A DNA stretch of 64,000 bases. Origin: Oceaniferula marina. GTDB lineage: Bacteria; Verrucomicrobiota; Verrucomicrobiia; Verrucomicrobiales; Akkermansiaceae. The translations under genes and the position numbers were made by a program. Below the pieces are notes generated by a model that worked only from the letters and a program-made list of their open reading frames with translations, was not told where the DNA came from and ran no database searches. The stretch is taken from assembly GCF_013391475.1 (NCBI RefSeq), contig NZ_JACBAZ010000002.1, positions 1-64,000 on the forward strand, written 5' to 3'. Shown one piece after another: positions 3,132 to 59,797 of the stretch; the first letter of the stretch is position 1; every line of letters begins with the position of its first letter.

Positions 3132-3178
3132 ACTCCACTCACCAAAAAGACCAAGCACCGCATCCCACATCCATCACC

Positions 3179-11230: not shown

Positions 11231-11328
11231 ATCCAAACGGGGAACCGCAACAACATTGGCACAACCATTTTCGGGTCCTCTCCATTGACGCGCCTGACAA
11301 CGATGCCATCTTATCCCAGACTGAAAAC

Positions 11329-12477: not shown

Positions 12478-12667
12478 AAGCTCGACAGCAATCCGTTCTT
12501 TCCATGGGACTTAAGTAATACCAACTCAACGCAGCCCCATTTAATTAAGTAAAACTAAGCATCTGCCGGCTTTTCCCTGCTGTCAGAGAAAAATGAAGTA
12601 AATCGTCGAGAGGTGCTTTACAAGTCGGACAAACTCGGCATAAATCCTTCAAATTTAGCAACACCCG

Positions 12668-41447: not shown

Positions 41448-42111
41448 TGGCCGCAGCGGCCATCACCTTGGCGTAGGCTTGGGCACCCTCACTCAGTTGG
41501 GCGAGGGGGATTTGGGCGGTTCTACCGGCTTTGTTGATGGTAATGAACAAGGTGGCCTTGCCATTGACGGTTTCGATTTTGGCAAAATGGCCGTAGTAGC
41601 TGCTCGTCCCTCCTTTTTGTAACCAAATGGGTGTGGTATCCGAGGCGGGTTTTGGCAACTTGCCGGTTTGGGCCTGGTCGATGATCTTTTGTAGGGTGGT
41701 GAATGCTTGCGGTGTCGAGAGGCGAAGGTAGGGCATCTTGGCCAGAACCTGGCTCTGGTCAGGCGTGCTGAGCACAACCTTGGGTACATTGCTGCCCATG
41801 TTGCCAGCTCGGAGCGATCCATACACAAGCGGGGAGAGGGATTCGAGTTCTCCTTTTTTGGTGCTGTTGACGTAGACCAGCGTCGCTTGTCCTTTGAGTT
41901 TGGTAAAAGCAGTCAAACTGACTGTGTCGCAGAGACTTCACGTGGATCCCGGATCCGTATAAACGAAGGCAAGAAGTGATTTTTTTTCTTCTGCCTTGGA
42001 TTGTGCCTGATCGAGTTGATCAATCGGATAAACGTGTTCAGGCACCTTGAAGCCGCCCATGGCGGGCATCGCCAAGAGGCAGAGGATGAGAAGCTTTCTA
42101 ACGATAATCAT
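41434..42111 (-). CDS. Putative selenoprotein, thioredoxin-like (USLC), paralogue B
   Basis: The frame from ATG 42111 to TAG at 41434 (225 residues) is broken only by one TGA, at 41938-41940. Read through, it gives VYTDPGST-U-SLC, a U-x-x-C redox motif, after a signal peptide (MIIVRKLLILCLLAMPAMG). Around it is a thioredoxin-like pattern ending in the IPK-like cis-Pro region (NVPKVVLSTPDQ). The upstream neighbour is its closest homologue, with U at the same place. A 15-base hairpin with AGTTT loop starts 14 bases after the TGA (41910-41924). The 18-bp gap to paralogue A implies one transcript. Alternative: a premature stop, but the twin argues against it. Confidence 0.83.
41910..41924 (-). 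promoter_or_regulatory. Candidate bacterial SECIS of paralogue B
   Basis: Reading from the TGA on the minus strand, CAGTC-AGTTT-GACTG forms a perfect 5-bp stem. Its 5-base loop starts 18 bases after the TGA, with G at loop position two. These values match the published bacterial SECIS consensus (spacing 16-37, G in the first two loop bases). The paralogue has the same AGTTT loop on a different stem. Confidence 0.75.
41938..41940 (-). other. In-frame UGA codon (putative selenocysteine) in paralogue B
   Basis: This TGA follows ACG (Thr) and is followed by AGT CTC TGC (SLC). It lies in the position of the thioredoxin CxxC first cysteine and is the only internal stop in the 225-codon frame. Confidence 0.83.
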
Positions 42112-42129: not shown

Positions 42130-43023
42130 TTATTGTTCAGCCAATTCCTCCGCCCGTTGCCGGCTTTTTTCAGAGAGGTGGCTGGTTGAGAAGGTGACGG
42201 TTTGGCCGTTGGCCTTTTTGAGTGTGATGTTATCGCCTGTGAGGGAAACGAAGGTAGCCTGCATGGATTTACCGTTTTGAGCGCTTTCCCAAGTTTCTTC
42301 CGCGAACGTTGGTGTGCTTTTCGTCGTCTCAGCTTCTTGGGCGATGGAGGATGCCCCTCCGAGAAGTTTGGCATATGCTTGGGCCCCTGAGCTGAGTGTC
42401 TCTAATGAAATAGTGGACTCCTTACCGGTTTCTTTCATTTTGAGGACCACGCTTGGACCTTTGTTAGGGTGATCCATAAGTTTGATAAAGGTCCCATTGT
42501 ATCCCCGCGTGGTGTTTTTAAGGTTCCAACGCGGGACGATGGTATGATCCGCGACGGGAGGATTACCATCGAGCGCAGCTTTGACAACTTTACTGCTGGC
42601 CGAATACTCCTTACTGGATTTCAGCTGTTTGTAGGACATCTTCGCATAGACCGTCATTTGATCCGGAGAGGTGATCACTGCCTTGGGAATGGTCATGCCA
42701 AGTTTCGGGTGTTGCAGGCTCCCAAGCACCAGCGGGGAGAGCAACTCGCGACCGCTTTTCGAGTGACTGCTGACGTAGACCAGAACCGAGTGTCTTTTGA
42801 ACTTCTTGAATGCTTCCAAACTGGCAGCGTTACAAGGGCCTCAGGTCGAGCCAGAATCGGTATACACAAAGGCCAGGGCCTTGTCGTCTTTTTCCGCCTT
42901 GGATTTCGCTTCTTCCAGCTGCTCGGTCGTAAATACCGAAGATGGAACTTTGAAACCGGCGAGGGAGAAGTTCGCGCTTAGTCCGAACAAAACGCAAGCG
43001 AGTAGCATTCTGGGTAAGATCAT
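42130..43023 (-). CDS. Putative selenoprotein, thioredoxin-like (UGPC), paralogue A, with SHD1-like tail
   Basis: The frame from ATG 43023 to TAA at 42130 (297 residues) has a signal peptide (MILPRMLLACVLFGLSANFSLA) and one internal TGA at 42841-42843. Reading through gives VYTDSGST-U-GPC-NAASL, the thioredoxin active site CGPC with Sec for the first Cys. The core of a thioredoxin-like fold follows (LVYVSS..., IPKAVITSPD). The last about 50 residues (TWESAQNGKSMQATFVSLTGDNITLKKANG) resemble SHD1 domains common in Verrucomicrobia. A hairpin with AGTTT loop starts 18 bases after the TGA. Paralogue B follows after 18 bp. Substrates are unknown; an exported redox role is inferred. Confidence 0.87.
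42812..42828 (-). promoter_or_regulatory. Candidate bacterial SECIS of paralogue A
   Basis: GCTGCC-AGTTT-GGAAGC pairs at five of six stem positions (G.A mismatch in the middle) around a 5-base loop with G at position two. The loop starts 18 bases after the TGA, exactly as in paralogue B, whose stem has different bases. Structure conserved while sequence changes points to selection. Confidence 0.75.
42841..42843 (-). other. In-frame UGA codon (putative selenocysteine) in paralogue A
   Basis: TGA followed by GGC CCT TGT gives U-G-P-C, the classic thioredoxin active site with the first Cys replaced. It is the only stop in a 298-codon frame. Confidence 0.86.
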
Positions 43024-43412
43024 ACTGGTGTTCTATCTGCCATGACCAGCCAGCTTGTCAACGCCTATCTGATAGCCGGTTTGATTTATAGGATTGACTG
43101 AAAGATAGGGGTGGTGATGCCGTATTTCTCAGACTATCAAAGCTTTGTATAAGGCTTTGTGTTTTATTCGGTTTGAGCCAGGTTTTCTTTATTTAGCTTA
43201 TTTTTAGCCATGGCGTATTACATTTTGTAAGCCGGGTTGGAACTTGCCTTTTATCCTGTGGGGCCGGGATTTTGAATCCATTTTACAGCGGCAGGAAGAA
43301 TAGCGTCGGGAGAATAATTTCATTCAGATGTTAAGATATTGAGTTCGTTTGCAGTGTATGTGGTATGGGTGAGCCTTTTTTAGGCTTAAGCATTAAAAAC
43401 ACACACAATATC

Positions 43413-46400
43413 ATGAAAAATACTATTTTGAAATTCAGCAAACGTATGAAACTTGCACATCTACAAAGGATGGTAGTAGGCAGTTTCGCCATATTCGGGG
43501 CAGTGGCAGCTCAGGTTAATGCGGCAACCCCATTACCCGACGATTTAAAACTTGTGATAGATGTTCAGGACTCCGGAACGTCAACGACGTATCAACAAAC
43601 CTTGCATCTGCACAAGCGCTCGGTTCGAGCGCCAGGATTCGTACTCTACACATGGGATGCGACCAATGGTTACGTGGCACAACCCACTCCCGAGGTTCGG
43701 ACATTTAAAGGAACGATCGGAGAAAATTCCAATGCGCTGGTGTTTGCTTCAATCAACGCGGATAACCAATTAAAAGCATCTTGTATTGATATGGAGTGGG
43801 GGCACGGTCGCCGATGGTCGGTTAGTGGTTTGGACGTTTCGGCACAGCTCGGCAGTCCTCAAACAGCTGACCCAATGCCCAGTCAGCCTGTGGCCGCCCC
43901 ATCCAATGGATCGGCGGGCACTCCGACCGTTGGTCCAAAGGTTCCGACGGGTACGTCGGCTGGCGGAGTCCCCTATGGCGGGATTGTCGAGGCTGAACTG
44001 GGGATGGATTGCCCGGTTGCTGCTTACACTCGTAATGGACAAAATCTGGATAACGTCCTCGCCCACTATGAGGTGGACCTCATGTTGTGGGAGCTGATGA
44101 TGGCTCGCGATTTAATGGTTCGTGTTGTGGTTCCAACAATTGTGATCCGCACAGAGAACTTTTACTCATCGGATCCGGGTAACACCTCATTGGGTGAACT
44201 CAAAGCTGCTTGGTTGGATACCAACGCACCCCTGGTGTCACGTGGTTGGGATAATGTTTGGTCTTCGGAAGGTTACTATGCATGGTCTGGTGTGGGTCAG
44301 GACGAAAGCTCGGTTTCAGCTGGAGCGTTGTATCATGAAATTGCGCATAACTGGACTGCATATCACCTAGGCTATATGGCCGATACGATGGGTGGTAACA
44401 AACCCGTGATTGGACCGCGGACTGCGGATACCATGTTGAATAAGCGTCAGGAAGCCATTGATGAAAATAAGCTTCCGGCTGGAACATATACTGATCCTCT
44501 TCCTCCGCATACCTATGTTGATGTGGCATTGACCTCAATCAATACCGCCATTGATATCGATGTGTTGGCGAATGACCACGATGCCAACGGAGATTCTATT
44601 TCTGTCGTTAGTCATACCACCACGACGGTGCCAGGAGGCAGTGTGACCTTGAATGGAGATGGCACTCTGCATTATGTTCCACCGACAGGTTATGTGGGGA
44701 AGGACATGATTGTGTATACGGTGCAGGATGATTCGCCGATGTCTTTAAAGACCCGCGACGTGGTACATATTGAAGTGGTGAATAATGGACTGATGGTGCA
44801 CTATGATATGGAAGATGCTACGGGGACACTTGCATCAGATGTTTCAGGCGTTGGTATTGCGGGTGATTTGAATGGTGCTGACTTTGCCACGGATTCGGTG
44901 GTATCTCCGCTAGGAAAAGGAATACGCGCGGATGGAACACAGAGTGAAAATCATACCGAAAATGGAGACTGGAGCGGGATCCTGATGGGCTCAGGCAACG
45001 TGATGCCCATCACTCTGAATCCCAGCCGTGAGGCCTCACCATTCGAACAGGAATATAACCAACATAGCGCGTTTTATGACATCATGGATGGCAACTACAC
45101 CTTTGCCACTTGGTTCTGCGCCGAGAGTTTTGACAATGCCGATTACCCACAAGGAGGCGGTTATGGTGCTTATATTGCGGCGCGGAGATGGCACCCTGAG
45201 ACGAAAGTCGGTTGGGATCTCTATGCACAAAATAATACGGTGGGGATGCACTGGCATGTTTTTGACGGAACGAAGACCATCGAGCATCTGAGCGCCAGCT
45301 ACCCGTTGACGGAAGGGAAATGGTATCATATCGCGGCCGTGTTTGACCGTGCGACTGATGAAATCCGTATTCTGGTCAATGGTCAGATCGTGGCAACCCG
45401 GACTAACGCATTTGCAGGCACCAATGGAGTCATTTTCAATGGTCGGGCTCCGCTGGCTTTGGGTGAATTCAGCAATAGGAAGATGTGTTTCGATGATGTG
45501 CGTATCTATTCCAAGGCACTCACGACTGCAGAAACACAAGCACTCGTTGATTTGGCGGATTCAGGAAAGGCGCGTTTTATAGAAAGCACTGTGCAGCACA
45601 GCTCATATGTGGATACGTTTTTTAATCAATCTCTCGTGCCAAATATTTGGAGTGAAGGATATGGTCCTCTGAGCTACGAAATTCTTTCTGGTCCGGCATG
45701 GCTTACTGTCGATAGCACAGGATCTCTTCTGGGTACGCCTGAATCGGGTGATTCCGGATTAAATACGTTCACCATTCAGATGACCGATAAGAATGGCAGC
45801 ACGGACACGGTGACGCTTGAGATCAACGTCCCCACCGTATCGACAGTGAATCGGATTGCCCACTGGAAATTGGATGACGGCAGTGGCACGACTGCGACCG
45901 ATGAAACAGGCAACTATGATGGCACTCTCAGTGGACCGACATGGACTGCTGGAAAGGATGGAGGGGCGCTCTCTTTCAACGGTGTTAGTGATCAAGTGAC
46001 TTGCGGAGTCATTCCTGCGACCTCACAAATGACTTTTGCAGGCTGGATCAACCCTGCTTCTACCTCGGGGATACAAGCGATCTTCGGCAAACCGGGATCT
46101 TTTTCAATCAGTTTAAATGGCTCAGCACTTCGCTATACCAAGCCAGGAGTGGCGGACTACGGTTCCAGCGGGCTGAGTCTGGCTGCTGGTGTTTGGCAAC
46201 ACATTGCAGTGACGATCAACGGTTCAGAGTTGCGCTTCTACAAGGATGGGGTGCTGCTGAGTCAGTCAAGCTGTTCTTACCCTAATAATAATGGGAACAA
46301 CGTCTTGCTCGGAAACAATCAATATAGCCAGTTCTATGGCGGCTTGTTTGATGATATGCAAATGTTTGATGTCGCACTCAGTCCAGATGAAGTGGGTGCG

Positions 46401-49400
46401 CTTCATGCCAGCTATTCAGCTGGAACTCCAGCAAGTGCTCACTGGAAGCTGGATGAAGGGAGCGGTGCAACGGCGACCGATGAAATGGGAAGCTATGACG
46501 GCACCATCAGTGGCGCGACCTGGACCACCGGTAAAGATGGTGGAGCTCTCTCTTTCAACGGAACCAGCGATCAAGTGACTTGCGCCTCGGTTCCTTCATC
46601 GTCACAAATGACATTCATGGGCTGGATCAAGCCCGATGATACTTCGGGCAATCAGGCCTTGTTCGGAAAGTCCCAGTCATTTTCCATTAGAATGAGCGGC
46701 TCTGAGCTCGAGTATACGAAACCGGGAGTCGGGGATTATAAATCTAGTGGTGTGGGTCTGATTTCCGGAGAATGGCAGCATGTGGCAATCAGTATCAATC
46801 AATCTGAGTTGAGTTTCTACAAAAACGGTGTGCTGGTTTATCAGAGAACTTGTTCCTCACCTAACGAGAATACAAACAGTGTTTTGCTTGGAAACAATCA
46901 ATATAATCAACGCTTTGGTGGCTTGCTGGACGATCTTCGTATTTACGATATTGTCCTGCACCCGTTTCAAATTCAATCGATCTACAACGGCTACGAGGAT
47001 CCGATGATTAACGAAGCGCCAACGGCTAACGATACGAATGGCAGTGTGGCAGAAAATGCCGGAGTCGGAGCCGCCGTGGCAACGGTCACCGCGACCGATC
47101 CGAATGTGGGAGACACTCTCAGTTATGCGATCACCGCGGGAAATGGAGGCGGCGAGTTTGCTATCAACAGTGGTACAGGAGAAATTACCACAACAACAGC
47201 ATTGAACTATGAAACGATGGCTAGCTATAGCCTGACGGTCACGGTCACGGATGATGGCGCCCCCGTACTTAGCGACACCGCAACGGTTACGGTGAATGTC
47301 ACCAACGTCAACGAAGCGCCAACGGCCATGGACTCTGTAGGCAGCATCGCGGAAAATTCAAGTGCCGGAGCAGCCATCGCCACCGTTACTGCCAGTGACC
47401 CTGATGCGGGTGACTCACTCGCTTATGCAATCACGGCAGGAAATAGTGGTGGATTCTTCGCTATCGACTCCAACGGTAACGTGACCACCACCGGTCCGCT
47501 GAACTATGAAGCAGGCAGCCAGTATGTGCTTGGCGTGACCGTTGTCGATGGGGGAGGTTTAAACGACACCGCGACGGTTACGGTGAATGTCACCAACGTC
47601 AATGAAGCGCCAACGGCCTCAGACGTGGTAGGCAATGTTGATGAAAATGGCTCAGCGGGAGCAGCTGTAGCTACGGTGTTAGCAAGTGATCCTGATGCTG
47701 GGGCTTCACTCAGCTATGTGATTGTCTCAGGAAACGATAGTGGACTCTTCGCTATTGATTCAGCGGGTAATATAACAACAACCGCAGCTCTCGATTTTGA
47801 AGACCTGAGTCAGTATCTTCTTACCGTTACGGTTTCGGACGGAGCTTTGGATGATACGGCCCAGGTGACGATTAACGTCAATGATGTCAACGAAGATCCC
47901 GAATTTACCGTCGACACAATCGACCTTGTTGATGCCTTGGACAGCACGGCCTACACAGGTCAAACTCTGGCGGGTTCCGCAACGGATGTCGATCAAGGCA
48001 CCAGCTTTAGTTTCTCCAAGGTGTCAGGCCCGGCTTGGTTGCTTCTTGCTGCTGATGGAGCTCTTTCAGGAACGCCAAGTTCCAGTGACCTTGGTGCTAA
48101 TGTTTTTGTCGTCGAAGTTAGTGATGGCAACGGGGGCACGGATACCGCAACACTCAACATTGAGGTGTTGGATAAGCGGCTCACGACAAGTTTTGCCAAC
48201 TACTGGTCGAGTTATGCTTGGAGCCGGGTAGTGGATGGAGATGTGAACACCTTTGCCTGGACGCATGGCTCGGCGCAGGTCGATGATCATTTCACCATCG
48301 AATACGGAGTTCCTGTTGGTCCTGGTGTTTTCCAAATCCTGACCGGAGACCCTGGTAATGGGGGAGACTCTCTTGCTGCGGGCGTGATGGAAACTTCGAA
48401 CGATGGGATAAACTGGACCAATGTAGCGACCTTTAGCTCGGGAAATGCTCAAACAACATTGGTATCCCCAGTGAAGTTTGTCCGCCTACGTTGCACCGCG
48501 TCTCAGGGACAGTGGCTTAAAATCCGCGAATTTGTCCCACCGACAAATGCCGCACCCGTTGCCAATGATGTGACATTCGGTATCGCCGAAAATGCGACTG
48601 TCGGATCAGCTGTCGGAACGGTGGTTGCGACAGATGCTGACGCTGGCGACACGCTCACCTATGCAATTACCGGAGGGAATGAAGCGGGAGCGTTTGCGAT
48701 TGATAGCAGTGGCAATATCACAACAGCAGCCTCTCTCGATTACGAGACTACTGCGCAGTATGTTTTAACCATTACGGTCACGGATGACGGCACACCCGTT
48801 CTGAATGATACAGCCGTGGTCACCGTTGATGTAAGTAACGTCAATGAAGCACCCACACTAGATGACAACAGTGGTAGTATTGCGGAGGATGCCATGATTG
48901 GATCCGCCGTTGTTACAGTATCTGCCAGTGACCCGGATGTTGGAGATACCCTCAGTTACGCCATAAGCTCAGGAAATACAGGTAACGCTTTCACAATCGA
49001 TAGCAGTGGCAATATCACCACGGCGACGGTGCTCGATTTTGAAACGACACCGAGTTACGTTCTTACTGTGACTGTCACGGATAATGGATTACTCGCTGAT
49101 ACCGCTGCAGTGACCGTCACCGTAACTGACGTCGTAGAGCTGACCTCTCCGGTGATTGTCACGGGAGCGGCGAGTAACATCAACCAAACCACAGTTGATC
49201 TTGCCTACTCGATTTCTGACACCGGAGGAGAAGATCCATCAGTCACCATCTATTACGGAGAAGTCAACGGCGGGACGGTTCCTGCGAACTGGACCAGCAG
49301 TGCTGCCCAGGGAGTGAAAACGACCGGAAGTTATCTAACTTCACTGAGTGGTCTGACCGAGAATATCACCTATTACTTCACTGTACATGCCAGCAATACG

Positions 49401-50297
49401 GCTGGTGAATCATGGGGTAGCACGGGAAGTTTTACCACCACCGCGGACACTTCTCCGAAGTTGGTGCGAACCACCGTGAGTGCCGTGAGCAATAGTTCAT
49501 GGACCACCGTGAACTTGGGGCAGAACTACACTTCCGCCGTGATCATAGCGACTCCGATCTATCCAAACACAACGACCCCGCCAGTGGTGACACGGATTAC
49601 CAATGTGAGTGGTGGCAGCTTTGATCTGAAGGTTGATCGGGCTGACGGCTTGACCGATGCCATGACCATTGATGTATCTGTTATTGCCGTGGAAGAAGGT
49701 GTTTATACCCAGGCAACTGACGGAGTGACCATGGAAGCGGTGAAATACACATCGACAGTGACATCTGAAAATAACAGTTGGGTCGGAGAAGCTCAAACTT
49801 ACCAAAATAGCTATACATCCCCTGTGGTTGTTGGTCAGGTGATGAGTGCCAACGATGCCAATTGGTCGGTATTCTGGAGTATGGGGAGCTCCCGCACGGC
49901 TCCAGCTGATGCGAGTACGCTTAACGTCGGTAAACACGTTGGTGAGGACCCCAATACCACCCGGGCGAACGAAACCATCGCTTACATTGTGATCGAGAGT
50001 GGAAGTGGCACGATCAATGGTGTCGCCTATGAGGCTGCCCTGGGTGCTGATTCGGTGCGTGGCTTTGGTAACTCGTCGAGCCCGTATACTTACAACTTGA
50101 GTGGAGGTCTCAGCACTGTAAGTGCTGCAGCAGCCAGTATCTCAGGAATGGACGGGGGGAATGGAGCTTGGGCGGTACTGTCCGGTTCACCATCACTAAC
50201 AACAACTAGCATTGGCTTACATGCTCTGGAGGATCAGCTGAATGATGCTGAGCAAAGTCACACTACCACTCAGGTAGGCTACGTTGTGTTTGAGTAA
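43413..50297 (+). CDS. Giant secreted protein with HEIAHNW region, LamG and cadherin-like repeats
   Basis: The 2294-residue product starts at ATG 43413, with a signal-like segment (VVGSFAIFGAVAAQVNA). Near residue 308 is LYHEIAHNW, an HExxH zinc-site pattern, within a domain lacking other named landmarks. Then come an Ig/cadherin-like unit, a LamG domain (about 470-720), a putative Ig unit, two more LamG domains (about 815-1190) that are clear duplicates, and three cadherin-like repeats (APTA.D..G...EN). A further Ig unit, an F5/8-type domain, two more cadherin-like repeats and an FN3-like unit follow, ending GYVVFE. It carries no PEP-CTERM tail. It likely acts as a surface adhesin or protease. 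Upstream 43024-43412 shows no other gene. Confidence 0.8.
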   Translation: MKNTILKFSKRMKLAHLQRMVVGSFAIFGAVAAQVNAATPLPDDLKLVIDVQDSGTSTTYQQTLHLHKRSVRAPGFVLYTWDATNGYVAQPTPEVRTFKGTIGENSNALVFASINADNQLKASCIDMEWGHGRRWSVSGLDVSAQLGSPQTADPMPSQPVAAPSNGSAGTPTVGPKVPTGTSAGGVPYGGIVEAELGMDCPVAAYTRNGQNLDNVLAHYEVDLMLWELMMARDLMVRVVVPTIVIRTENFYSSDPGNTSLGELKAAWLDTNAPLVSRGWDNVWSSEGYYAWSGVGQDESSVSAGALYHEIAHNWTAYHLGYMADTMGGNKPVIGPRTADTMLNKRQEAIDENKLPAGTYTDPLPPHTYVDVALTSINTAIDIDVLANDHDANGDSISVVSHTTTTVPGGSVTLNGDGTLHYVPPTGYVGKDMIVYTVQDDSPMSLKTRDVVHIEVVNNGLMVHYDMEDATGTLASDVSGVGIAGDLNGADFATDSVVSPLGKGIRADGTQSENHTENGDWSGILMGSGNVMPITLNPSREASPFEQEYNQHSAFYDIMDGNYTFATWFCAESFDNADYPQGGGYGAYIAARRWHPETKVGWDLYAQNNTVGMHWHVFDGTKTIEHLSASYPLTEGKWYHIAAVFDRATDEIRILVNGQIVATRTNAFAGTNGVIFNGRAPLALGEFSNRKMCFDDVRIYSKALTTAETQALVDLADSGKARFIESTVQHSSYVDTFFNQSLVPNIWSEGYGPLSYEILSGPAWLTVDSTGSLLGTPESGDSGLNTFTIQMTDKNGSTDTVTLEINVPTVSTVNRIAHWKLDDGSGTTATDETGNYDGTLSGPTWTAGKDGGALSFNGVSDQVTCGVIPATSQMTFAGWINPASTSGIQAIFGKPGSFSISLNGSALRYTKPGVADYGSSGLSLAAGVWQHIAVTINGSELRFYKDGVLLSQSSCSYPNNNGNNVLLGNNQYSQFYGGLFDDMQMFDVALSPDEVGALHASYSAGTPASAHWKLDEGSGATATDEMGSYDGTISGATWTTGKDGGALSFNGTSDQVTCASVPSSSQMTFMGWIKPDDTSGNQALFGKSQSFSIRMSGSELEYTKPGVGDYKSSGVGLISGEWQHVAISINQSELSFYKNGVLVYQRTCSSPNENTNSVLLGNNQYNQRFGGLLDDLRIYDIVLHPFQIQSIYNGYEDPMINEAPTANDTNGSVAENAGVGAAVATVTATDPNVGDTLSYAITAGNGGGEFAINSGTGEITTTTALNYETMASYSLTVTVTDDGAPVLSDTATVTVNVTNVNEAPTAMDSVGSIAENSSAGAAIATVTASDPDAGDSLAYAITAGNSGGFFAIDSNGNVTTTGPLNYEAGSQYVLGVTVVDGGGLNDTATVTVNVTNVNEAPTASDVVGNVDENGSAGAAVATVLASDPDAGASLSYVIVSGNDSGLFAIDSAGNITTTAALDFEDLSQYLLTVTVSDGALDDTAQVTINVNDVNEDPEFTVDTIDLVDALDSTAYTGQTLAGSATDVDQGTSFSFSKVSGPAWLLLAADGALSGTPSSSDLGANVFVVEVSDGNGGTDTATLNIEVLDKRLTTSFANYWSSYAWSRVVDGDVNTFAWTHGSAQVDDHFTIEYGVPVGPGVFQILTGDPGNGGDSLAAGVMETSNDGINWTNVATFSSGNAQTTLVSPVKFVRLRCTASQGQWLKIREFVPPTNAAPVANDVTFGIAENATVGSAVGTVVATDADAGDTLTYAITGGNEAGAFAIDSSGNITTAASLDYETTAQYVLTITVTDDGTPVLNDTAVVTVDVSNVNEAPTLDDNSGSIAEDAMIGSAVVTVSASDPDVGDTLSYAISSGNTGNAFTIDSSGNITTATVLDFETTPSYVLTVTVTDNGLLADTAAVTVTVTDVVELTSPVIVTGAASNINQTTVDLAYSISDTGGEDPSVTIYYGEVNGGTVPANWTSSAAQGVKTTGSYLTSLSGLTENITYYFTVHASNTAGESWGSTGSFTTTADTSPKLVRTTVSAVSNSSWTTVNLGQNYTSAVIIATPIYPNTTTPPVVTRITNVSGGSFDLKVDRADGLTDAMTIDVSVIAVEEGVYTQATDGVTMEAVKYTSTVTSENNSWVGEAQTYQNSYTSPVVVGQVMSANDANWSVFWSMGSSRTAPADASTLNVGKHVGEDPNTTRANETIAYIVIESGSGTINGVAYEAALGADSVRGFGNSSSPYTYNLSGGLSTVSAAAASISGMDGGNGAWAVLSGSPSLTTTSIGLHALEDQLNDAEQSHTTTQVGYVVFE

Positions 50298-50560: not shown

Positions 50561-53500
50561 TCAGCGCATCGGCTGCCTGTTGGCATAGAGGGAAACAGCT
50601 TTTTGAAGGCTTTGAACGAGAGAGGCGTTGGCCTGTTTTTTTGCTAATGGGAGTGCTTGCCGTGCAATCTTGATAGCTTGATCGAATTTGCCCAGTTCAG
50701 CGTATGCTGCGGCTAAGGTGTCCAGATACCCAGGTTCTTGATATTGGCTAAGCTCGACGGCACGAGTCGCACAACGGAGGGCTTCTTTACCATTGCGAAA
50801 AGAGGGGTCGTGGTGGGTGGCTAGCTGCCAAGCGATGTTATTCAGGACCACGGGATTATGGAATCCCGTTTGTGAGGCTGTTTTATAAAAGGCTGCGGCA
50901 TGACGGTTCATGTTCTTTTTAAGGTATTCCTCCGCAATCCAAGTGAGTAATAGTGGGTATTCCTTGTGATCGAGTAGTTGGTTGTGGGCGCGGACAACAT
51001 AGTCAGCGACATCCACGAGGTGATCGCCCTCCATAAGAAGGCGAGGGATGTAGAGCAGGTTGATTTTTTGTGTAGTCGTTAGCCAGCGACCATTTGTTTT
51101 TGGATCGGGGGCGATCCCGGTGGTTTGAGCGAGCTGTTTTGCGTCATGAACAAACGTGTCAACCGAGTGTGCACCGTTGTAGAGAGTCACGATATTGCCA
51201 TTGGTGGAAACAAGAAGGCTGCTTGGTGTCGGGAGATCCTTGATGATGGGAAATGTGTGGTTGAAAATCGCAGCTAGTGCAGAGTTTGTTGCGGCGTTTG
51301 GGACACCTGACTGCCAAGGGGATTGAAGGTGCTTAAGAAGCCTGGAGGCCTCATTTTGATCTTCGAGTTCGGAATCAATACATAGGAAGACCAGATTCAA
51401 ATGATCTCTTATTGTTTTAGCAGAACGGATTAAGGATGTTATTTCCTTTCGACAATTTTGACATCGCTGACTCCACAGAATGACGAGTAGTGGCTTCTTG
51501 AGTTGTTTGATTTCAATGAATTGATTTAGATTCTGGTCTTTGAAACGTAGATTCGGAGCTGGAAAAGGAATTCTGAGCGGTGCCCTGACCGCGCTAGAGC
51601 TGTTGCACGCTTGATGGGATGTTGTTTGTTCAGGTTGTGGGGGAGAAAATGTCAGTTTTTGAAGTGTCGGGTTTTCCTGAATAGCTTGGTAATAGTGGTT
51701 GATTGCCGGAGGCGGGAAGGACTGGGTTGATCCGTCCGGCCAAGTGACGGATAAGGCTCTAATCTCGGTGGCGTCACCAAGACCAAAGTTGAGTCGCTTG
51801 CTGGACTGGCTGGCAAATCCTTCACCGGCTTTGAGGCTGCGAATCAAGAGACGGCCATTTTCGAGGGTCACCTTGACCCGGGCTCCAATCGCATCACGAT
51901 TGTTGTGGCTCGTTCCTCTGAGTTTGATGCCTAACCAGTTTCCTGTATTCTTCATTTGATTATGCATGAAGCGAAGGCGAGGGGCATTTCTATTGGATGC
52001 CCAAAAATCGATTCTTCCATCACTGTCCCAATCCATGAGAGCGAGCCCCCGGCTATCGTCTGGCATATCCCAGCCACTTAAAGCGGAAACGGTGGAAAAT
52101 TGGGCGTCGCCGCGGTTCAAAAACACACAGTTCCGTTCATTGCCACTGAAGGATTTTCCCTCGTGAGCCATGCGGTTGACCGCGCTGATGTTGGCAACAT
52201 ACCCGTCTGCGCTGGATGTTGCCAGTTCGAGTTCTTGTTCGCTGATTGGAGCTTTCGACATGACCTGTCGCCACCATATACTTCACAAATCGTCCATCTC
52301 CTTACCAGTAATAAACCCATTGGCGACTAACAAGTCGTCCCAGCTGTCATTGTTAATATCAGCTGCTAACGATGCCCAACTCCAGCGGCCAACACGAATG
52401 CCAGTGTCATCACCGGCAGCTTTAAATCGTCCGTCTCCTTGGTTGATGCTTAATGTGTTTCCCTTAGCGAGGAGTTGAAATGTATTTTTCATTTCTTGGT
52501 CGGTTCCCGACTTGAAAGCCGCTTGCCGAGTGACCCGGCTTCCTGCGGAGGAGAACATATTACTCACGTGAATATCCATGTTTCCATCACCGTTAAAATC
52601 CCCTGAGCAAGCACCCATGCTAAATTCACCGGAAATTAAACCGGCCTCTTTAGTGACTTCAGTAAATACCCCTCGGTTATTTTGATACAGGTTATTTTGC
52701 CCAAAGTCGTTGGCAACGTAAAGGTCCTGATCTCCATCATTATCCCAATCATCCCAGTGGGCTGCGTAGGTAAAACGGTTGTTGTGTTGGTTTAGCCCTA
52801 CTTGATCAGTGACATTTTTAAATCCAAGTTCTCCAGTGTTCTTTAAGAGTGTGTTTCTCCCCCCATTGGTTGCATTATACACAGGATGAGGGACAGGGAT
52901 GTTTCCTTGTACGGATTGCTGTCCCTTTCTAACGGTTTGATCGCCATAATAGCGACATGCGTAGAGGTCGACTAACCCATCTTGATCGTAATCAGCCGCG
53001 CAAAGGCTGTAGCAATAGCGGACGTCTTTCAGCAGTTTGATCCGCTTGAAATGCCCCGTGGAATCATTGGCAAGAATGGCCACTCCTGCCGAGGTTGCTA
53101 GCGCCATATCCTGATCGCCATCGTTATCAAAATCGACAAATAGGGCGCAGGTGCTGTTGTCCATGAAGTCGATACCTGATTGATGAGCCGCATTGATGAA
53201 TGAGCCATCAGCTTGCTGAAGCATCAGCATATTGGGCAGTCCTCCTAGTTGGCAAACATAGACATCCTCTCGACCATCTTCATTGACATCGGCAACACTA
53301 AGGCCATTGAGAGCAAAAAACTCGGGTTTAAGGGCCGCCTCAATACGTTGTAACCAATGGTTTGCACCTTGATAGATCATCGTATTTTCGTCCTCATTTA
53401 AACGGAGAACCGAAGTGGTAAGGTCCTCAAACATCAAGCTCTCACGGGTCAAACGAGTGTCGTCATCAAGACCTCCAGTCAGCTTGACAAGTTGCACATT

Positions 53501-53980
53501 TTCTCCAGCTAATTTCCAGTGTGCCAGCCACTCGGTGTTGATTTCGCGGAAGCCGTTGTCCGTTTTGATGAACAAGGCTACCAATTGGCGCGTCCTAAAA
53601 ACATTCGATTGTTCATCATCGACGACCACTTCAATGATCTTGAATTTAGTGCGTAGAATCTTTCCTCGGATGAGTTCCTTGAAGCGTTTCAAAGAGGTGG
53701 CGTGGTGGGCTTTTTTTGCCAGAGACGCATCGGCAGTCCCGCTTACGATCAATCCGCCTTTGTGGGGAGTCAATTCTGTGTTTCCAAAATCGATATTAAG
53801 ATGAAAGTTGCTGGCGAGATCCTGTGCAAGTTGATCACGCGGGATTTCGCCTTTCATCCATTGCCCAAGATGTTTCAGTGCGCCTCCCGCTTGACTCGAG
53901 AGCTCTTCTTGTCGGTCAAGAGGTGCGGCGATGATCGGAATGTAGCTACAGAGAAAATAGAGAATCAGGAAACGGCGCAT
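50561..53980 (-). CDS. Putative selenoprotein: FG-GAP/UnbV protein with thioredoxin-like and TPR regions
   Basis: From ATG 53980 to TGA at 50561 (1139 residues) the frame has one internal TGA at 52283-52285. Before it: a signal peptide (MRRFLILYFLCSYIPIIAA) and FG-GAP/VCBS repeats (DVNEDGREDVYVCQL, DYDQDGLVDLYACRY, DWDNDGDQDLYVANDFG). Read through it continues NGFITGKEMDDL-U-SIWWRQV, the FG-GAP/ASPIC-UnbV region, then UnbV (GDATEIRALSVTWPDGSTQSF). A thioredoxin-like module with a CQNC motif (LWSQRCQNCRKEI) and TPR helices follow. From memory, relatives have Cys-containing DLC-S-FFWRQVV at the Sec site. A hairpin 17 bases later supports Sec. Confidence 0.84.
52256..52270 (-). promoter_or_regulatory. 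Candidate bacterial SECIS of the UnbV gene
   Basis: CGACA-GGTCA-TGTCG forms a perfect 5-bp stem. The loop begins 17 bases after the TGA and starts with GGTC, the motif seen in the loop of E. coli fdhF SECIS. Spacing and first-base G match the bacterial consensus. Confidence 0.78.
52283..52285 (-). other. In-frame UGA codon (putative selenocysteine) in the UnbV gene
   Basis: The codon lies between TTG and AGT in the same frame as both flanking open stretches (566 and 565 codons). The final stop of the gene is also TGA, so the code is standard. Confidence 0.83.
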
Positions 53981-54093: not shown

Positions 54094-54717
54094 TTATTTT
54101 CTTCGGCGCAGAATCAATGCAAGACCACCAAGGCCGAGTAAGGCTGTTGAGCTGGGCTCGGGAACTTGAACAAGGTCAAGTCTGACGTTATCAATGAGGA
54201 CCTGTGGACCGTTGGTTTCAATATAAAGAACAATATCAGAGGATGCTGTATCCACCGTTCCGACCACGTCATAGTCAGCAAATTCGGTTGTCAGTGTCGA
54301 AGACGTGACTGGTCCTCCAATCAAACTCGCACCAAATCCATCTTGAATATCAAAATCAAAAGTGGGTGAGTTGTTTGAGTTGTCTGCAGCTAGTGTTAAG
54401 GTGAAGATGTCGCCTGGATTGACAGCTCCGCCTAGAATGGATGCCGTGATGTTTTGCGTTAGACTGGCTGAACCGCCTTCTAAGAATACATACACACTTC
54501 CATCAATACCTGTTGGGTCGGGTGAACTAGCTTGCATTCCACCGCCGCCGGATTTGGTCCAGCCATCGGGTGTGTTATTGTTCCAGTCTGGTGCTGGGAG
54601 AGGAAGTCCGGCACCGTTTTCAAACGAGTGGTTGTTGATGGTGACCGACGCCGCATGCAGGGCGCTGGCCCCACATAGCAGAGCAACCGCCATGCATAGT
54701 TTTATGATATGTTTCAT
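54094..54717 (-). CDS. PEP-CTERM sorting-signal protein
   Basis: The 207-residue protein has a signal peptide (MKHIIKLCMAVALLCGASALHAA) and ends VPEPSSTALLGLGGLALILRRRK, a complete PEP-CTERM tail (PEP motif, membrane segment, basic end) recognised by an exosortase for anchoring. The middle is a beta-rich adhesin-like region. It lies upstream of the UnbV gene with a terminator between. The shared 17-bp motif at 54888-54904 is 171 bases upstream. No exosortase gene is in the window. Confidence 0.9.
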   Translation of the reverse strand: MKHIIKLCMAVALLCGASALHAASVTINNHSFENGAGLPLPAPDWNNNTPDGWTKSGGGGMQASSPDPTGIDGSVYVFLEGGSASLTQNITASILGGAVNPGDIFTLTLAADNSNNSPTFDFDIQDGFGASLIGGPVTSSTLTTEFADYDVVGTVDTASSDIVLYIETNGPQVLIDNVRLDLVQVPEPSSTALLGLGGLALILRRRK

Positions 54718-54976: not shown

Positions 54977-57900
54977 TTATCGCTCGGTGATTCGTAAGCG
55001 AACAAACCCACGCGGTGAATCAGGTAGGGACCAGGTGTAGACCGGGTTACCATTTGGATCAGGTGTCTGTTGGATGACGGTAAGTTCCGTTTCGCTCCAA
55101 TCCTCAAGGTTGGTTGACCACTGTGGGGCAACCTCAACATCGTCGTGCCCTAGTTTTTGACTGTAAGTTAATCTGCGTATGCCATCGATGCTCTCAGTGG
55201 TGGGACCTGATGATAAGGCATAATCGACAAGGTTACCTCCGGTGTAGGGCGTGCTGTCAGATGTTCCAGGGTTGCCACCGGATTGGATGCTGGCGCGCCA
55301 ATTGATTGCGTTACTGTGGTCGGGTAGGCTTTGAGGGTGGATTAAGACAAGGCTGGCGCCAGTGCTGTCTGGTGACGTTGGCCAGGGTGGCACGTCGTTG
55401 TAAACAAAATCCTGAATCGGGTCGTCAGCTCCGAAGGAGAGAGTGATCCGTTCGCCGTCATTGCTCAGACCGCTGGTTGTCTCTCCGGCAATCGGTAGCG
55501 AGTTACCATACTCCGCTTCGAAGGCTGCTTTATTTTTCACCACGAGAACATATTCGCCCGGAGCGATACTCGTGATGCTTGAATCGGCAAACGAAAACTG
55601 GATGCCTGCGGTGAAACTGACAGGGCTGAGATCGAGGGTGGCACTGCCGACATTCATGATTTCAATGAACTCAAGGTCACCACCACCGGTTGGTTTATAC
55701 ATGATTTCGCTGATGACCAAGCTGTTGCGGTAGGTTGAAAGGTCCGGACTGGAAACGTTGAATTCAATCGGGTCTGACCAGTGGCTCCACCGACCACTGG
55801 TATCTTGATGACGCACGCGGGCGCGGTAGGTGCTACCCGTGGCGATGACGGATGGCGGGATGACGACTTCTGAGTCGAAGCTTGTTAGTTCGCCGCTTTC
55901 CCAGATGGCGTCGATTTCATGGGGTGGCGCTTTCAGTGGGTTGTAGTTGAGTGCTAGTGGATCAGCAACTTCTCCCAGTCTCCACTCCATGGCGGCAAAA
56001 GACCCGTTTCCGTTAGGATCAGTGAACGCGGTGCTTTGAAATCTCAGATCAGTGATGGGGAATCCAGTGGCTCCCGTGTAACTGATGGTTGGTTGGTTGG
56101 GGATGTTGATGTCGGCGGCCTCGGCTAACAGGTTGTCGTATCCGTGACCACCTGCGCTCATGAATTTGCGGGTGAAGTCCATTTGGCCTTCATGATCGGC
56201 GGATAGAATGGTCCGTGTGTAAGTGGCGCCTCCTGGATTCGCTGTTGCCGTGAGCCGGTTGTAGTATCCTTTATGTTTACTCTTCGTATGATAATTCCAA
56301 ACGTGTTGATCCGCATCCGCCCAGGTCAAGGGGTCTCCTGGCGGGTTGACGATGTCGATAAACTCATTAAGCACCGTATCGACGGCTTTGGGGTTGAACA
56401 GAAGATCGAGCATCTCTCGCTGTTCATTTTTTCCTTCGAGATAGTTGAGCGGGTAGCTGGGGGTGAGGCATAGTCTGAATCGATCCCAGGTGTAATACTT
56501 GTGGGTTGGTGTTAAGACGGTATCGAGATCCCAGGGCATAAAGACCCATTTGTCGGTGTCCGGGTTATGGTAATAGTAACCTTGTTGGCCATCGCGCTGA
56601 TCATAGTGCGCCATGACTTCCGCGACCGCTTTGTATCGGGCATAACTGAGGTGATCGACATTGTCCCGCCACCATTGCTGGGATTGGGAGGTGTTCAGGT
56701 TGTTACGCAGGGTGTTGCCATCGCTTGGGCCGAGAGGTTCATCCGCGCCCTGGTTATCTTGGAGTAGGGGAGATTCCAACTTGTAGACATTGCCATCGGG
56801 CAAATTGCGATCATCAAGAAATCTGCCGTCTGGAACTTCGACACTGAAATAGAGACCCCAAAAATCTCCGTTGTATTGATCAGATGGGTTTGCTTCGGAG
56901 GCATCATCAACCACGCGGAAGTGAAAGTAGCTGGTCCGGCTTGAGGGGATTCCCGCGAGTTCAAATAAACGATAGGAAACACACTCGTCGATTCCTCCCA
57001 TGCCACGATTGGCGTGCGCCCATGGGGCTGTGCCACCATTGACTTTCATGTCTTTCCAGCGACTTTCATATTTCTTGCCGTAGTTGTCGCGTGCTTGAAA
57101 ATAATGGCCACGGTTGAATCTCAGGCGCCATTTATTTTTGCCTGTGACGTAGGTCGAAAACTGTCCTCGGATATTAAAGCGGACATGGTCATAGACTCTG
57201 CCGTCGTAGATTAAGGTTCCTTCGAACTGGGTGTTGCGGAAGGAGCTGCTATATTGCGAGTTGGTGATGTCGGAACTGTTGGCAATCAGATGATAGACAG
57301 GGATGGTCTCGAGAAGGCCCTTGCTGAATGTCTGAACTGAACTTACGCCGGGCTGGTTGGTTCCTTGCCACGACGGCACCCCGTCATAACAAAAATACGC
57401 AAAATTCGGTTGTGGGTCATCTTGGTACGGAACTTGGATCTGGTGGTTTGCAGTGTCTGTCGCACGGATGCGATAACGGATCATCCTGCGGTGCACTTGC
57501 ACGCTGGCTGGAATCATGACCGTAAAAATGGAATCTCCCGCAAGGATGTCACCGTTGGTTCCATCATCGAACATGGTAAGTGTTGCCCAGCTATTTTCAT
57601 AACTAACATCACTCAGACGGATATAGTTTCCTGGATCGACGATTTGGTAATCGAGATCAACGGAGGCAACGCCATCGGGGTCGGTGATTTTGGCGGTGAT
57701 AGTGACGGTATCCGTCGATAGCGGCTGTTCAGGGAAATGATCGACCTGCCGGATCTGCGGAGGTGTGATGGTGGAGTAGGCAGTGTTGACTGCGCCTGGG
57801 GTAGGAACTCCCGAAGAAATCGATCCAGGTGCTGGAGTTTTTAGTTCAAGGTCGATTGATAAGTCGCTGCTGCCGATGGTTCCGTTGAGAACTTGAACGG

Positions 57901-58879
57901 CAATCGTGTTGGTTCCTTGTTGAAGATAGGCTGATGCTGCTGTCAGCAGAGATTCTTCCCAAGCGCTTTCGTGATCGTAGGAAAAGTTTCCCGGAGGAAA
58001 TGGGATGGCTCCGTCAGGCATGGAGAATCGCTTGACCTCCTGACCATTGATGTAAACTACGCAGCCATCATCGTAATAGGCTCTGAGTAGCAGTGTTGAG
58101 GGGATGGTTTGTCCTACTCCGATTGTAAACTCGTGCCGAAGAAAAATGCTCTGATAGCTGTTCCGCATATCGTTGAGTGTCGTTGCGTCATCTCCGTCAC
58201 CGTAGCCGATGGGGGTTTGTCCGGTGAGCCAGAGGCCATCGGTGGTTTCATCGTATCCATGTTCGAACCATTGTCTGCCACTGGTGTCGTTTGACGGGTA
58301 GCTGGTTCCTTTCCGATACCGCCATGCCGTATCGCCAGCAGAGAGAAACATAACCTCGGGGACAGAGTCTCCGGTGCTGTAACTGCGCCAGGATCCCGCT
58401 AAGTTATTGTCGAGTGAGGGGTGGATGAGTTCCATCGATGCACCATCGCCATTTGCAGCTGTTGGCCACGGAAAATGGACGCCGTAATCGACGGTGTCGA
58501 TGACGAGTCCCACACTATCCCTGAGGGTGATTTTTTCTCCGCTGTTGCTCAGTTTTCCTGACCATGGTCCGAGAGCGCTGGCCCCATACTCGGCGAGCAG
58601 GGTCGTGGGGTTTTGGGCGATTACCACAAAACCACCCGGAGCAATGTCTATGGCGGGAAATGTAAAATCCACCCCATTACTGAACTGCCAGTTGGTGAGA
58701 TCCACGGTTACGGAACCTCGATTGAAGAGCTCGATGAATTCAGCGGGTTTGGTTTTATCCGCCGGGTCGTAGTGGATCTCATTGATGACGATGTCATTCG
58801 AACCCGCTGTAGTCGAGCCAGGGCATCCTAGGTAAATGCCAAGCTGAGCTATTAGAGAGATGGAGGAAAAAAAGCGCAA
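54977..58879 (-). CDS. Large secreted lamin-tail/CotH protein, paralogue of the 15995 gene
   Basis: The 1300-residue product begins at TTG 58879 with a signal peptide (FFSSISLIAQLGIYLGCPGS). It has a lamin-tail domain (IVINEIHYDPADKTKPAEFIELFNRG), a beta-sandwich with a gap-like region (about 170-345), an Ig-like unit (TDTVTITAKITDPDGVASVDL), CotH (about 510-880, TLIYDGRVYDHVRFNIRG), an FN3-like unit, and a second lamin-tail (LVISEIMYKPTGGGDLEFIEIMN). The C-terminal beta domain ends RGFVRLRITER, like the other. No ATG start was found near, so TTG is used. It follows the second PEP-CTERM gene; its terminator lies between. Confidence 0.78.
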   Translation of the reverse strand: MRFFSSISLIAQLGIYLGCPGSTTAGSNDIVINEIHYDPADKTKPAEFIELFNRGSVTVDLTNWQFSNGVDFTFPAIDIAPGGFVVIAQNPTTLLAEYGASALGPWSGKLSNSGEKITLRDSVGLVIDTVDYGVHFPWPTAANGDGASMELIHPSLDNNLAGSWRSYSTGDSVPEVMFLSAGDTAWRYRKGTSYPSNDTSGRQWFEHGYDETTDGLWLTGQTPIGYGDGDDATTLNDMRNSYQSIFLRHEFTIGVGQTIPSTLLLRAYYDDGCVVYINGQEVKRFSMPDGAIPFPPGNFSYDHESAWEESLLTAASAYLQQGTNTIAVQVLNGTIGSSDLSIDLELKTPAPGSISSGVPTPGAVNTAYSTITPPQIRQVDHFPEQPLSTDTVTITAKITDPDGVASVDLDYQIVDPGNYIRLSDVSYENSWATLTMFDDGTNGDILAGDSIFTVMIPASVQVHRRMIRYRIRATDTANHQIQVPYQDDPQPNFAYFCYDGVPSWQGTNQPGVSSVQTFSKGLLETIPVYHLIANSSDITNSQYSSSFRNTQFEGTLIYDGRVYDHVRFNIRGQFSTYVTGKNKWRLRFNRGHYFQARDNYGKKYESRWKDMKVNGGTAPWAHANRGMGGIDECVSYRLFELAGIPSSRTSYFHFRVVDDASEANPSDQYNGDFWGLYFSVEVPDGRFLDDRNLPDGNVYKLESPLLQDNQGADEPLGPSDGNTLRNNLNTSQSQQWWRDNVDHLSYARYKAVAEVMAHYDQRDGQQGYYYHNPDTDKWVFMPWDLDTVLTPTHKYYTWDRFRLCLTPSYPLNYLEGKNEQREMLDLLFNPKAVDTVLNEFIDIVNPPGDPLTWADADQHVWNYHTKSKHKGYYNRLTATANPGGATYTRTILSADHEGQMDFTRKFMSAGGHGYDNLLAEAADINIPNQPTISYTGATGFPITDLRFQSTAFTDPNGNGSFAAMEWRLGEVADPLALNYNPLKAPPHEIDAIWESGELTSFDSEVVIPPSVIATGSTYRARVRHQDTSGRWSHWSDPIEFNVSSPDLSTYRNSLVISEIMYKPTGGGDLEFIEIMNVGSATLDLSPVSFTAGIQFSFADSSITSIAPGEYVLVVKNKAAFEAEYGNSLPIAGETTSGLSNDGERITLSFGADDPIQDFVYNDVPPWPTSPDSTGASLVLIHPQSLPDHSNAINWRASIQSGGNPGTSDSTPYTGGNLVDYALSSGPTTESIDGIRRLTYSQKLGHDDVEVAPQWSTNLEDWSETELTVIQQTPDPNGNPVYTWSLPDSPRGFVRLRITER

Positions 58880-58975: not shown

Positions 58976-59635
58976 CTACTTCCTGCGGCGCAGGGTCAGA
59001 GCAAGTCCACCGAGACCGAGTAGTGCTGATGAGCCAGGTTCGGGAACGGCTGTGGCTTGGATGGCGACAGCATCAACGATTGACCAATCTCCCTCGTCGG
59101 CACCCGTGTCGGCTACGCTGCTTAATGTAATAACGATGTTGCCGTCAGTATCAACCGTGGCAATACCAATTTTCTGGAAGTTGTAGTCACTTTTTCCGTC
59201 TGTACCATCGTTCAGCACCAGATCATCTGTTGGGCTAAGCTCTTGATTGACAAAAATGGAAGCGCCTCCCTGGATCGTGTATGGCACTGCAGACGATCGA
59301 TTACTTTGCTCTCTCCACGTAGCGAATACATCCCATTGGGTGCCTGTTGTCATGTTGGAAAATGTCCATGTTGCCGTTTTGCCAGCGACAGGATCAAAGT
59401 CCCATTCGGTGTTATTCCAATAGACTGAGTCGCCCGTTTGCCATCCTGCAGCCGAGGAAGTAAAGTTTCCTGTGATCGCACCCATGGAATCACCACCAGT
59501 ACTTTTGTCGACGATTGTAGAGTGTGTAGTATCACCCCCTGCCGGACCGCCTCCGTCGATGACGGCTATCACTGCTGCTTGGGAGGCTATTGTATACCCA
59601 AGGAGTGTGGTCGTTATGATTAATTTCTTTTTCAT
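58976..59635 (-). CDS. PEP-CTERM sorting-signal protein, second
   Basis: The 219-residue protein begins at 59635 (MKKKLIITTTLLGYTIASQAA), with an alternative Met at 59647. It ends AVPEPGSSALLGLGGLALTLRRRK, again a full PEP-CTERM tail. The middle is a beta-rich region with a WDFDPVAGKTATW core, unlike the other PEP-CTERM protein. It is followed by a terminator and the CotH gene, matching the layout at 54 kb, and has the same motif 163 bases upstream. Confidence 0.9.
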   Translation of the reverse strand: MKKKLIITTTLLGYTIASQAAVIAVIDGGGPAGGDTTHSTIVDKSTGGDSMGAITGNFTSSAAGWQTGDSVYWNNTEWDFDPVAGKTATWTFSNMTTGTQWDVFATWREQSNRSSAVPYTIQGGASIFVNQELSPTDDLVLNDGTDGKSDYNFQKIGIATVDTDGNIVITLSSVADTGADEGDWSIVDAVAIQATAVPEPGSSALLGLGGLALTLRRRK

Positions 59636-59797
59636 TATATTTCTCATTGGTTTTTGAGCTTGAATTCAATCACAGCTGAGAGGCGAAATTGGTTTCGTTC
59701 AAGCTGAGCTATGAAGGATCGTAATCCTTTCGATTGACATGCGAAAAGACTGATTGAGGGGGTGAAATCGACGGGTTTCATAGTTACTTGCACAATG

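Follow-up and report, generated by a model that had tools for sequence, protein, structure and literature searches.

A candidate selenoprotein combining an FG-GAP/UnbV beta-propeller and a thioredoxin domain in Oceaniferula marina

The gene, its in-frame TGA and the downstream hairpin

The window analysed here is a stretch of 64,000 nucleotides from Oceaniferula marina (contig NZ_JACBAZ010000002.1, positions 1 to 64,000). We report on a gene of its minus strand which encodes an FG-GAP/UnbV protein and is interrupted by a TGA codon, a candidate site for selenocysteine (Sec, U). The gene appears as two open reading frames, 52283-53980 (565 amino acids) and 50561-52261 (566 amino acids), lying in a common frame and separated by this single TGA. 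Conceptual translation through it gives a product of 1139 residues with U566 at TGA 52285-52283. A previous reading of the letters alone (the sequence-only reading) had placed the gene correctly at 50561-53980, the strand being in fact minus, and the segment DDL-U-SIWWRQV that it proposed was recovered by translation. Its count of 565 codons on one side of the TGA also holds; the 566 codons on the other side start at the first ATG, which is found 8 codons past the TGA and sits within the hairpin, and the full open stretch is 573 codons. The elements in question are the following.

50561..53980, minus strand: candidate selenoprotein gene, 1139 residues, Sec566, terminal TGA at 50563-50561 (readthrough translation and homologues)
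52283..52285, minus strand: in-frame TGA, predicted to be decoded as Sec, U566 (same aligned codon TGA in 28 members, TGC in 1)
52256..52270, minus strand: SECIS-like hairpin (SECIS, selenocysteine insertion sequence) CGACA-GGTCA-TGTCG, with its stem 12 nt and its loop 17 nt past the TGA (conservation and covariation)

When the readthrough protein was compared with its relatives (tblastn, 135 loci), those having a DL-x-SxxW segment carried TGA at the site, bar one TGC. The segment is missing from most other FG-GAP relatives; rather than being typical of the FG-GAP/UnbV family, as had been suggested, it marks one subfamily. Reading frames were examined in 29 members: the codon is TGA in 28, the window gene counted, TGC in one (L127), and never TAA or TAG. 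The other TGA members are 28-39% identical to the window protein, and Trp is present at position +4 past the TGA in 29/29. Carrier metagenome-assembled genomes are labelled Verrucomicrobiaceae (L041), Verrucomicrobiales (L042, L044), uncultured Verrucomicrobia (L043), Planctomycetales (L040) and uncultured bacterium (L045). An ordinary FG-GAP/UnbV gene with a premature stop, be it a pseudogene or an error of sequencing or assembly, would also look like an otherwise intact gene split by one in-frame stop. Yet such a lesion would not be expected to recur at one and the same position across 28 members from many genomes, always as TGA, and with coding conservation that persists past it; we give this explanation next to no chance.

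The segment was then looked for as a profile. In the order sample (386 genomes, at most 10 matches scored per genome), the threshold of E <= 1e-14 was passed by 74 genomes, which gave 383 matches altogether; each of the best 150 of these 383 contains one TGA, and one of the 150 also has a TAA. In the phylum sample, 17/387 genomes matched at E <= 1e-10, G379 having three TGA copies. The DNA pattern D-L-TGA-xxx-W-R-x-V was found at 275 places in 64 of the 386 genomes, up to 12 per genome, compared with a single place for the reversed control pattern. Two of these 64 genomes (G494, G721) have no profile match, and their pattern matches are probably due to chance.

A set of 71 distinct sequences was chosen by a motif requiring D at −2 and Trp at +4 relative to the TGA. 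Ser is found at +1 in 68 of them, encoded once by TCG instead of AGY, and 67 have Arg at +5, with the reservation that 19 of the 71 came via the DNA pattern, which partly fixes the Arg codon.

The perfect 5-bp hairpin with a GGTCA loop, reported by the sequence-only reading as starting 17 bases on, is present in the window gene; 17 is the start of the loop, and the stem begins at 12. Across the family its place is constant while its letters vary (CGACA/TGTCG, CGCCA/TGGCG, CGTCA/TGACG, AGGCA/TGCCT, and GAGCAC/GTGCTC in a variant with a 4-nt loop). Synonymous codons were shuffled 2000 times in the 28 TGA members, every one of which had been identified through protein similarity, each protein being preserved with its own codon usage. 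A stem of at least 5 bp with a GG loop occurs in 20/28 members (shuffle mean 1.06, maximum 5), and one with any loop in 26/28 (mean 4.9, maximum 13). The 71 distinct sequences include 67 with a stem of at least 5 bp, of which 61 have a 5-nt and 6 a 4-nt loop. The DNA pattern fixes some 5′ stem bases; once the 19 pattern-derived sequences were removed, the stem was found in 50/52 (44 with a 5-nt loop, 6 with a 4-nt loop).

Pair 17-27 is fixed by neither selection. It is paired in 64/65 sequences, as A-T, G-T, C-G, G-C or T-A, against a mean of 50.8 and a maximum of 58 in 10000 permutations. Codon choice follows the stem: Ser at +9, within it, is encoded by TCG in 54/56 cases, and Ser at +11, outside it, in 4/45. 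The loop of the 67 stems is GGTC in 59, CGTGG in 5, AGTTT in 2 and GGTTC in 1; its GT is also set by a conserved Val, so that the loop sequence alone is weaker evidence. No hairpin of this kind occurs in the Cys paralogue L127. Rfam at gathering threshold gave no match in the 64-kb window. We conclude that conservation of the TGA in 28 members, together with a retained hairpin, goes beyond chance. The comparison supports a hairpin maintained beyond protein constraint, with compensatory pairs, as a putative SECIS.

Selenium machinery and homologues without the TGA

The genome of the window encodes SelA, and has a SelB match exceeding the cut-off. A tRNA-Sec candidate is present as well, scoring 51.7 bits, and is the sole one of 12 matches above the gathering score of 47; this model passed its cut-off in 5/14 control genomes as well.

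Of the 386 genomes in the order sample, 120 have a SelA match, 115 of these over the cut-off. SelA was present in 69/74 carriers of the segment and in 51/312 other genomes (both 69, carrier only 5, SelA only 51, neither 261; p = 6e-37). Counting only SelA matches above the cut-off, the four classes became 65, 9, 50 and 262 (p = 5e-32). The TGA-copy genomes G379 and G732-G737 had a SelA match in 7/7 cases, that of G735 being a fragment under the cut-off. For four of G732-G737, the SelA places coincide with those of G493, G470, G489 and G537 of the order sample.

Near-full-length profile matches without TGA were found in four genomes of the phylum sample (G319, G369, G340, G255), whose only homologues have Cys (L142, L143, L158), Asp (L144, L145, L168) or Gly (L159) at the site; SelA is absent from all four. 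The Cys attributed to relatives by the sequence-only reading was seen in four sequences, these three and L127, but it is rare and TGA prevails. Comparing Cys with UGA at this residue, as had been proposed, gave TGA in 28/29 members and TGC in 1/29, with Asp and Gly as well among distant homologues. A tree was computed from 36 rows. Rows with Cys, Asp or Gly fall on a single branch (100/100), distinct from those with Sec; of the latter, 19 group with the window protein at 99/99, and six others group at 100/100. L017 and L045, both on long branches, are placed with uncertainty. The tree, which omits L044 and L123, is rooted at midpoint and does not show the order of Sec and Cys origin. The sister proteins of these four SelA-less genomes constitute natural substitutions informative on the role of Sec.

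These data also bear on the possibility that UGA readthrough places a different amino acid here, by near-cognate Trp insertion or under a reassigned code, the hairpin being a stimulator. A downstream hairpin can stimulate stop-codon readthrough in general. Against this, TGA also serves as terminator in family members, the non-TGA homologues seen have Cys, Asp or Gly and not Trp, and carriers co-occur with SelA. We consider such readthrough extremely unlikely.

Domain architecture and proposed function

The domains assigned to the readthrough protein are listed below.

53921..53980, minus strand: N-terminal hydrophobic export signal, predicted from sequence, with lipobox-like cysteines in several relatives
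51911..53305, minus strand: CRTAC1-like FG-GAP beta-propeller, residues 226-690, limits approximate (Pfam; 9etn by sequence and fold)
52130..52315, minus strand: insert between two propeller strands, specific to the subfamily, residues 556-617 (alignments, structure model)
51689..51892, minus strand: UnbV/ASPIC domain, residues 697-764 (Pfam, E 1.7e-19)
51101..51583, minus strand: TlpA/ResA-like thioredoxin domain, residues 800-960, limits approximate (TlpA 1jfu profile; ResA fold)
51452..51463, minus strand: CQNC redox motif, residues 840-843 (CxxC in 21/21 long members)
50636..50788, minus strand: TPR repeats, residues 1065-1115 (Pfam 21.6 bits against a cut-off of 30.1; predicted helices)

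The hydrophobic N-terminus and the lipobox-like cysteines suggest that the protein is probably exported. The propeller matches CRTAC1 (9etn) at 1.8e-44 by sequence. Two structure models were built. The first, from 7 rows, had a mean predicted local distance difference test (pLDDT) of 60.7, and its fold search is to be weighed accordingly; in this poorer full-length model the thioredoxin domain resembles TlpA and ResA by fold. The second, from 23 rows, covers residues 226-960 (735 residues) with a mean pLDDT of 82.5 and a predicted template modelling score of 0.75. Its fold search, which bears mainly on model residues 1-561, placed the propeller and UnbV part close to CRTAC1 9etn (Z 42.5, root mean square deviation 2.1 over 429 residues); given this coverage, no weight attaches to the families that it did not bring up. 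The propeller insert carries DL-U-SxxWR and finishes with an SGxERN motif. A helix is predicted at 565-572 (model 340-347), and Sec (model residue 341) occupies its second position.

The CQNC thioredoxin-like module announced by the sequence-only reading proved correct, the motif falling in a domain that matches TlpA 1jfu at 1e-20 by profile search; a Pfam Thioredoxin_8 match, residues 829-902, is under its cut-off. Exactly one CxxC, 255-285 residues after Sec, was found in all 21 members that continue for 380 residues or more past Sec. This count omits L014 (TAA 224 codons past Sec), L044 (contig end 63 codons past Sec), L127 and the short TGA members L015, L016, L017, L125 and L126. In ten aligned rows, Pro is invariant at the cis-Pro position. 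The retained CxxC and the invariant cis-Pro suggest that a redox role of the thioredoxin domain is under selection.

Could the gene encode two proteins, an N-terminal propeller and a C-terminal UnbV-thioredoxin-TPR protein, separated by a conserved stop followed by reinitiation? The window has an ATG 8 codons past the TGA, and 60/71 relatives have GTG at that place. ATG is nevertheless found there in only 2/76, the codons from the TGA to the ATG place are conserved as protein, and the split would cut through the beta-propeller. Two proteins would also leave the SelA link and the hairpin covariation unexplained, and we regard them as very unlikely. Pseudogenes or errors, two proteins and code reassignment were all rejected, on the grounds given for each.

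We are left with the gene encoding one exported selenoprotein, with Sec566 inserted by way of SelB and the hairpin in a subfamily-specific propeller insert, and acting most likely as an extracytoplasmic redox enzyme; we estimate the probability of this reading at about 0.86. The proposal of a selenoprotein with a single internal TGA is supported by TGA conservation, the covarying hairpin, the machinery and SelA co-occurrence. Sec decoding, the subfamily assignment and the domain assignments are likewise supported, by comparative evidence.

A number of observations weigh against this conclusion. The carrier-SelA tests ignore the relatedness of the genomes, and the four genomes sharing SelA places look already present in the order sample, hence are not independent. 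Five carriers have no SelA match (G428, G431, G582, G586, G701), all of them less than 90% complete, and G582 and G586 contain the TGA pattern; in four more (G442, G489, G555, G573) the SelA match is under the cut-off. The genome of L017, G011, has SelB and no SelA match, and the Cys paralogue L127 sits in a genome, G034, that has SelA and TGA paralogues. No 5-bp stem is found in 4/71 sequences (L017, L122, L207, L221), and the folding energy of the window hairpin is ordinary (z −0.33); folding energy by itself is uninformative and would not reveal this hairpin. Confidence in the model of the Sec insert is middling, with block means of about 56-74 around Sec. Finally, the short members L015, L016, L017, L125 and L126 lack the CxxC domain, so that a relay to Sec is not general. 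L017 is a divergent TGA member without a hairpin of the family type, and together with G011 it may reflect a decaying gene or a binning gap.

Given one CxxC in all long members and the invariant cis-Pro, we propose that Sec is reactive and that the thioredoxin domain is its reductant. SelB would bind the hairpin beginning 12 nt past the UGA and bring Sec-tRNA(Sec), and Sec would enter the chain as residue 566. This position opens a helix of a propeller insert which only this subfamily has among the relatives examined. Outside the cytoplasm, this propeller-borne Sec would serve as attacking or peroxidatic residue, to be re-reduced by the CxxC of the fused TlpA/ResA-like domain. We infer that Sec is catalytic, and the intramolecular Sec/Cys link advanced by the sequence-only reading is plausible, given the CxxC of all 21 long members; the relay from CxxC to Sec we place slightly short of an even chance. 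As for the substrate, an oxidised thiol, a sulfoxide or a peroxide would be our guess.

Alternatively, the protein may be a true selenoprotein in which Sec works independently of the fused thioredoxin, by binding a metal or reacting with an outside partner, with thioredoxin serving in folding or maturation, for example. The short members, which retain Sec without a CxxC domain, fit this, as do the Cys found two residues past Sec in three of them and the Asp or Gly of distant paralogues. Like L127 and the seven non-TGA homologues, the short TGA members end about 190-223 residues past the site, without CxxC. The strict retention of one CxxC and of the cis-Pro in long members speaks against independence, which we hold to be a possibility of about one chance in three. 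More broadly, the family has in our view even odds of being an unlisted class of extracytoplasmic selenoenzymes, made of a propeller with a built-in thioredoxin reductant, which would reach at least 10 paralogues in some SelA-bearing Verrucomicrobiota, account for a large share of selenium demand, and perhaps have a different substrate for each paralogue.

Neighbouring genes and comparison with known systems

Two adjacent genes of the window also bear one in-frame TGA.

42132-43023, minus strand: thioredoxin-like gene, GST-U-GPC, TGA 42843-42841
41434-42111, minus strand: thioredoxin-like gene, GST-U-SLC, TGA 41940-41938

At the site of the first, TGA is found in 15/16 listed covering rows (39 relatives, the window's two rows counted). 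AGTTT-loop hairpins of ordinary energy follow both TGAs, as judged by eye and partly by folding. The ranking of the FG-GAP/UnbV gene as a third selenoprotein gene is thus in keeping with these two neighbours and with TGA conservation in relatives of the first.

On the other strand, the Sec gene adjoins a single open reading frame of 2310 amino acids (43365-50297, plus strand). LTD/CotH-kinase protein genes adjoin Sec FG-GAP genes both in the window (54977-58879, minus strand) and in L041 (1947-5369, plus strand, and 10278-13973, minus strand). A link between CotH and Sec genes is possible; as CotH domains are very common (12-62 per genome among the matches listed, ten genomes searched), none is claimed. 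Two PEP-CTERM proteins, 54094-54717 and 58976-59647 (minus strand), lie on either side of the CotH gene of the window. L042 has a gene fusing a glutathione-peroxidase-like domain to a methyltransferase domain (2575-3792, minus strand); some 1.7 kb separates it from the Sec FG-GAP gene, and an ALAD gene lies in this interval.

A 2026 inventory lists 119 prokaryotic selenoprotein families or subfamilies (PMC13188914, Table 1), some of them cited to Haft and Tolstoy 2025. Neither this table nor text searches of the same article gave an FG-GAP, UnbV, CRTAC1 or beta-propeller entry. In NCBIfam 20, seven families matched at E up to 1, all far under their cut-offs and none specific. Searches of open-access full text found no paper pairing selenoprotein with UnbV, or with FG-GAP and selenocysteine, and among those pairing selenoprotein with CRTAC1 none is on bacteria by its title. 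The family is therefore absent from the selenoprotein lists checked, namely the inventory, NCBIfam and open-access full text, to the exclusion of GenBank, supplements and subscription papers. Gene callers reading TGA as stop would split such genes, and these large, probably exported proteins are likely annotated as pairs of fragments. If true, our proposal would place Sec on a fold without entry in the 119-family inventory and reveal a multiplication of selenoproteins in a bacterial group seldom considered in relation to selenium; it would also provide many natural sequence variants for probing which SECIS features are required.

The window protein shares with CRTAC1 and ASPIC-UnbV proteins (PF07593, PF13517; 9etn) the propeller and the UnbV domain, and differs from CRTAC1 by its fused thioredoxin and TPR parts. 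CRTAC1 moreover shows no sign of the Sec segment, its match to the segment profile (18-64 of 149) stopping before the Sec column. With TlpA/ResA-type thioredoxins, the likeness extends to CxxC, the cis-Pro position, sequence and fold; unlike in these, the thioredoxin domain is here fused behind a Sec propeller. In glutathione peroxidase and peroxiredoxin selenoenzymes, Sec belongs to the active site of the thioredoxin fold, whereas that of the window protein is in a propeller insert, outside the thioredoxin domain. A GGTC-loop hairpin soon after the UGA is a feature which we take to resemble the bacterial SECIS of the fdhF type; compared with the latter, the family hairpin often has a stem of 5-6 bp, with loop registers of 4 or 5 nt. 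UGA, a SECIS-like hairpin and SelA-bearing hosts are common to this family and to the known prokaryotic selenoprotein families of PMC13188914. Thioredoxin-type selenoprotein families of its Table 1 have Sec within the UxxC/CxxU-type motif itself, whereas in the window protein the thioredoxin domain would be the Cys part and Sec would lie in the propeller.

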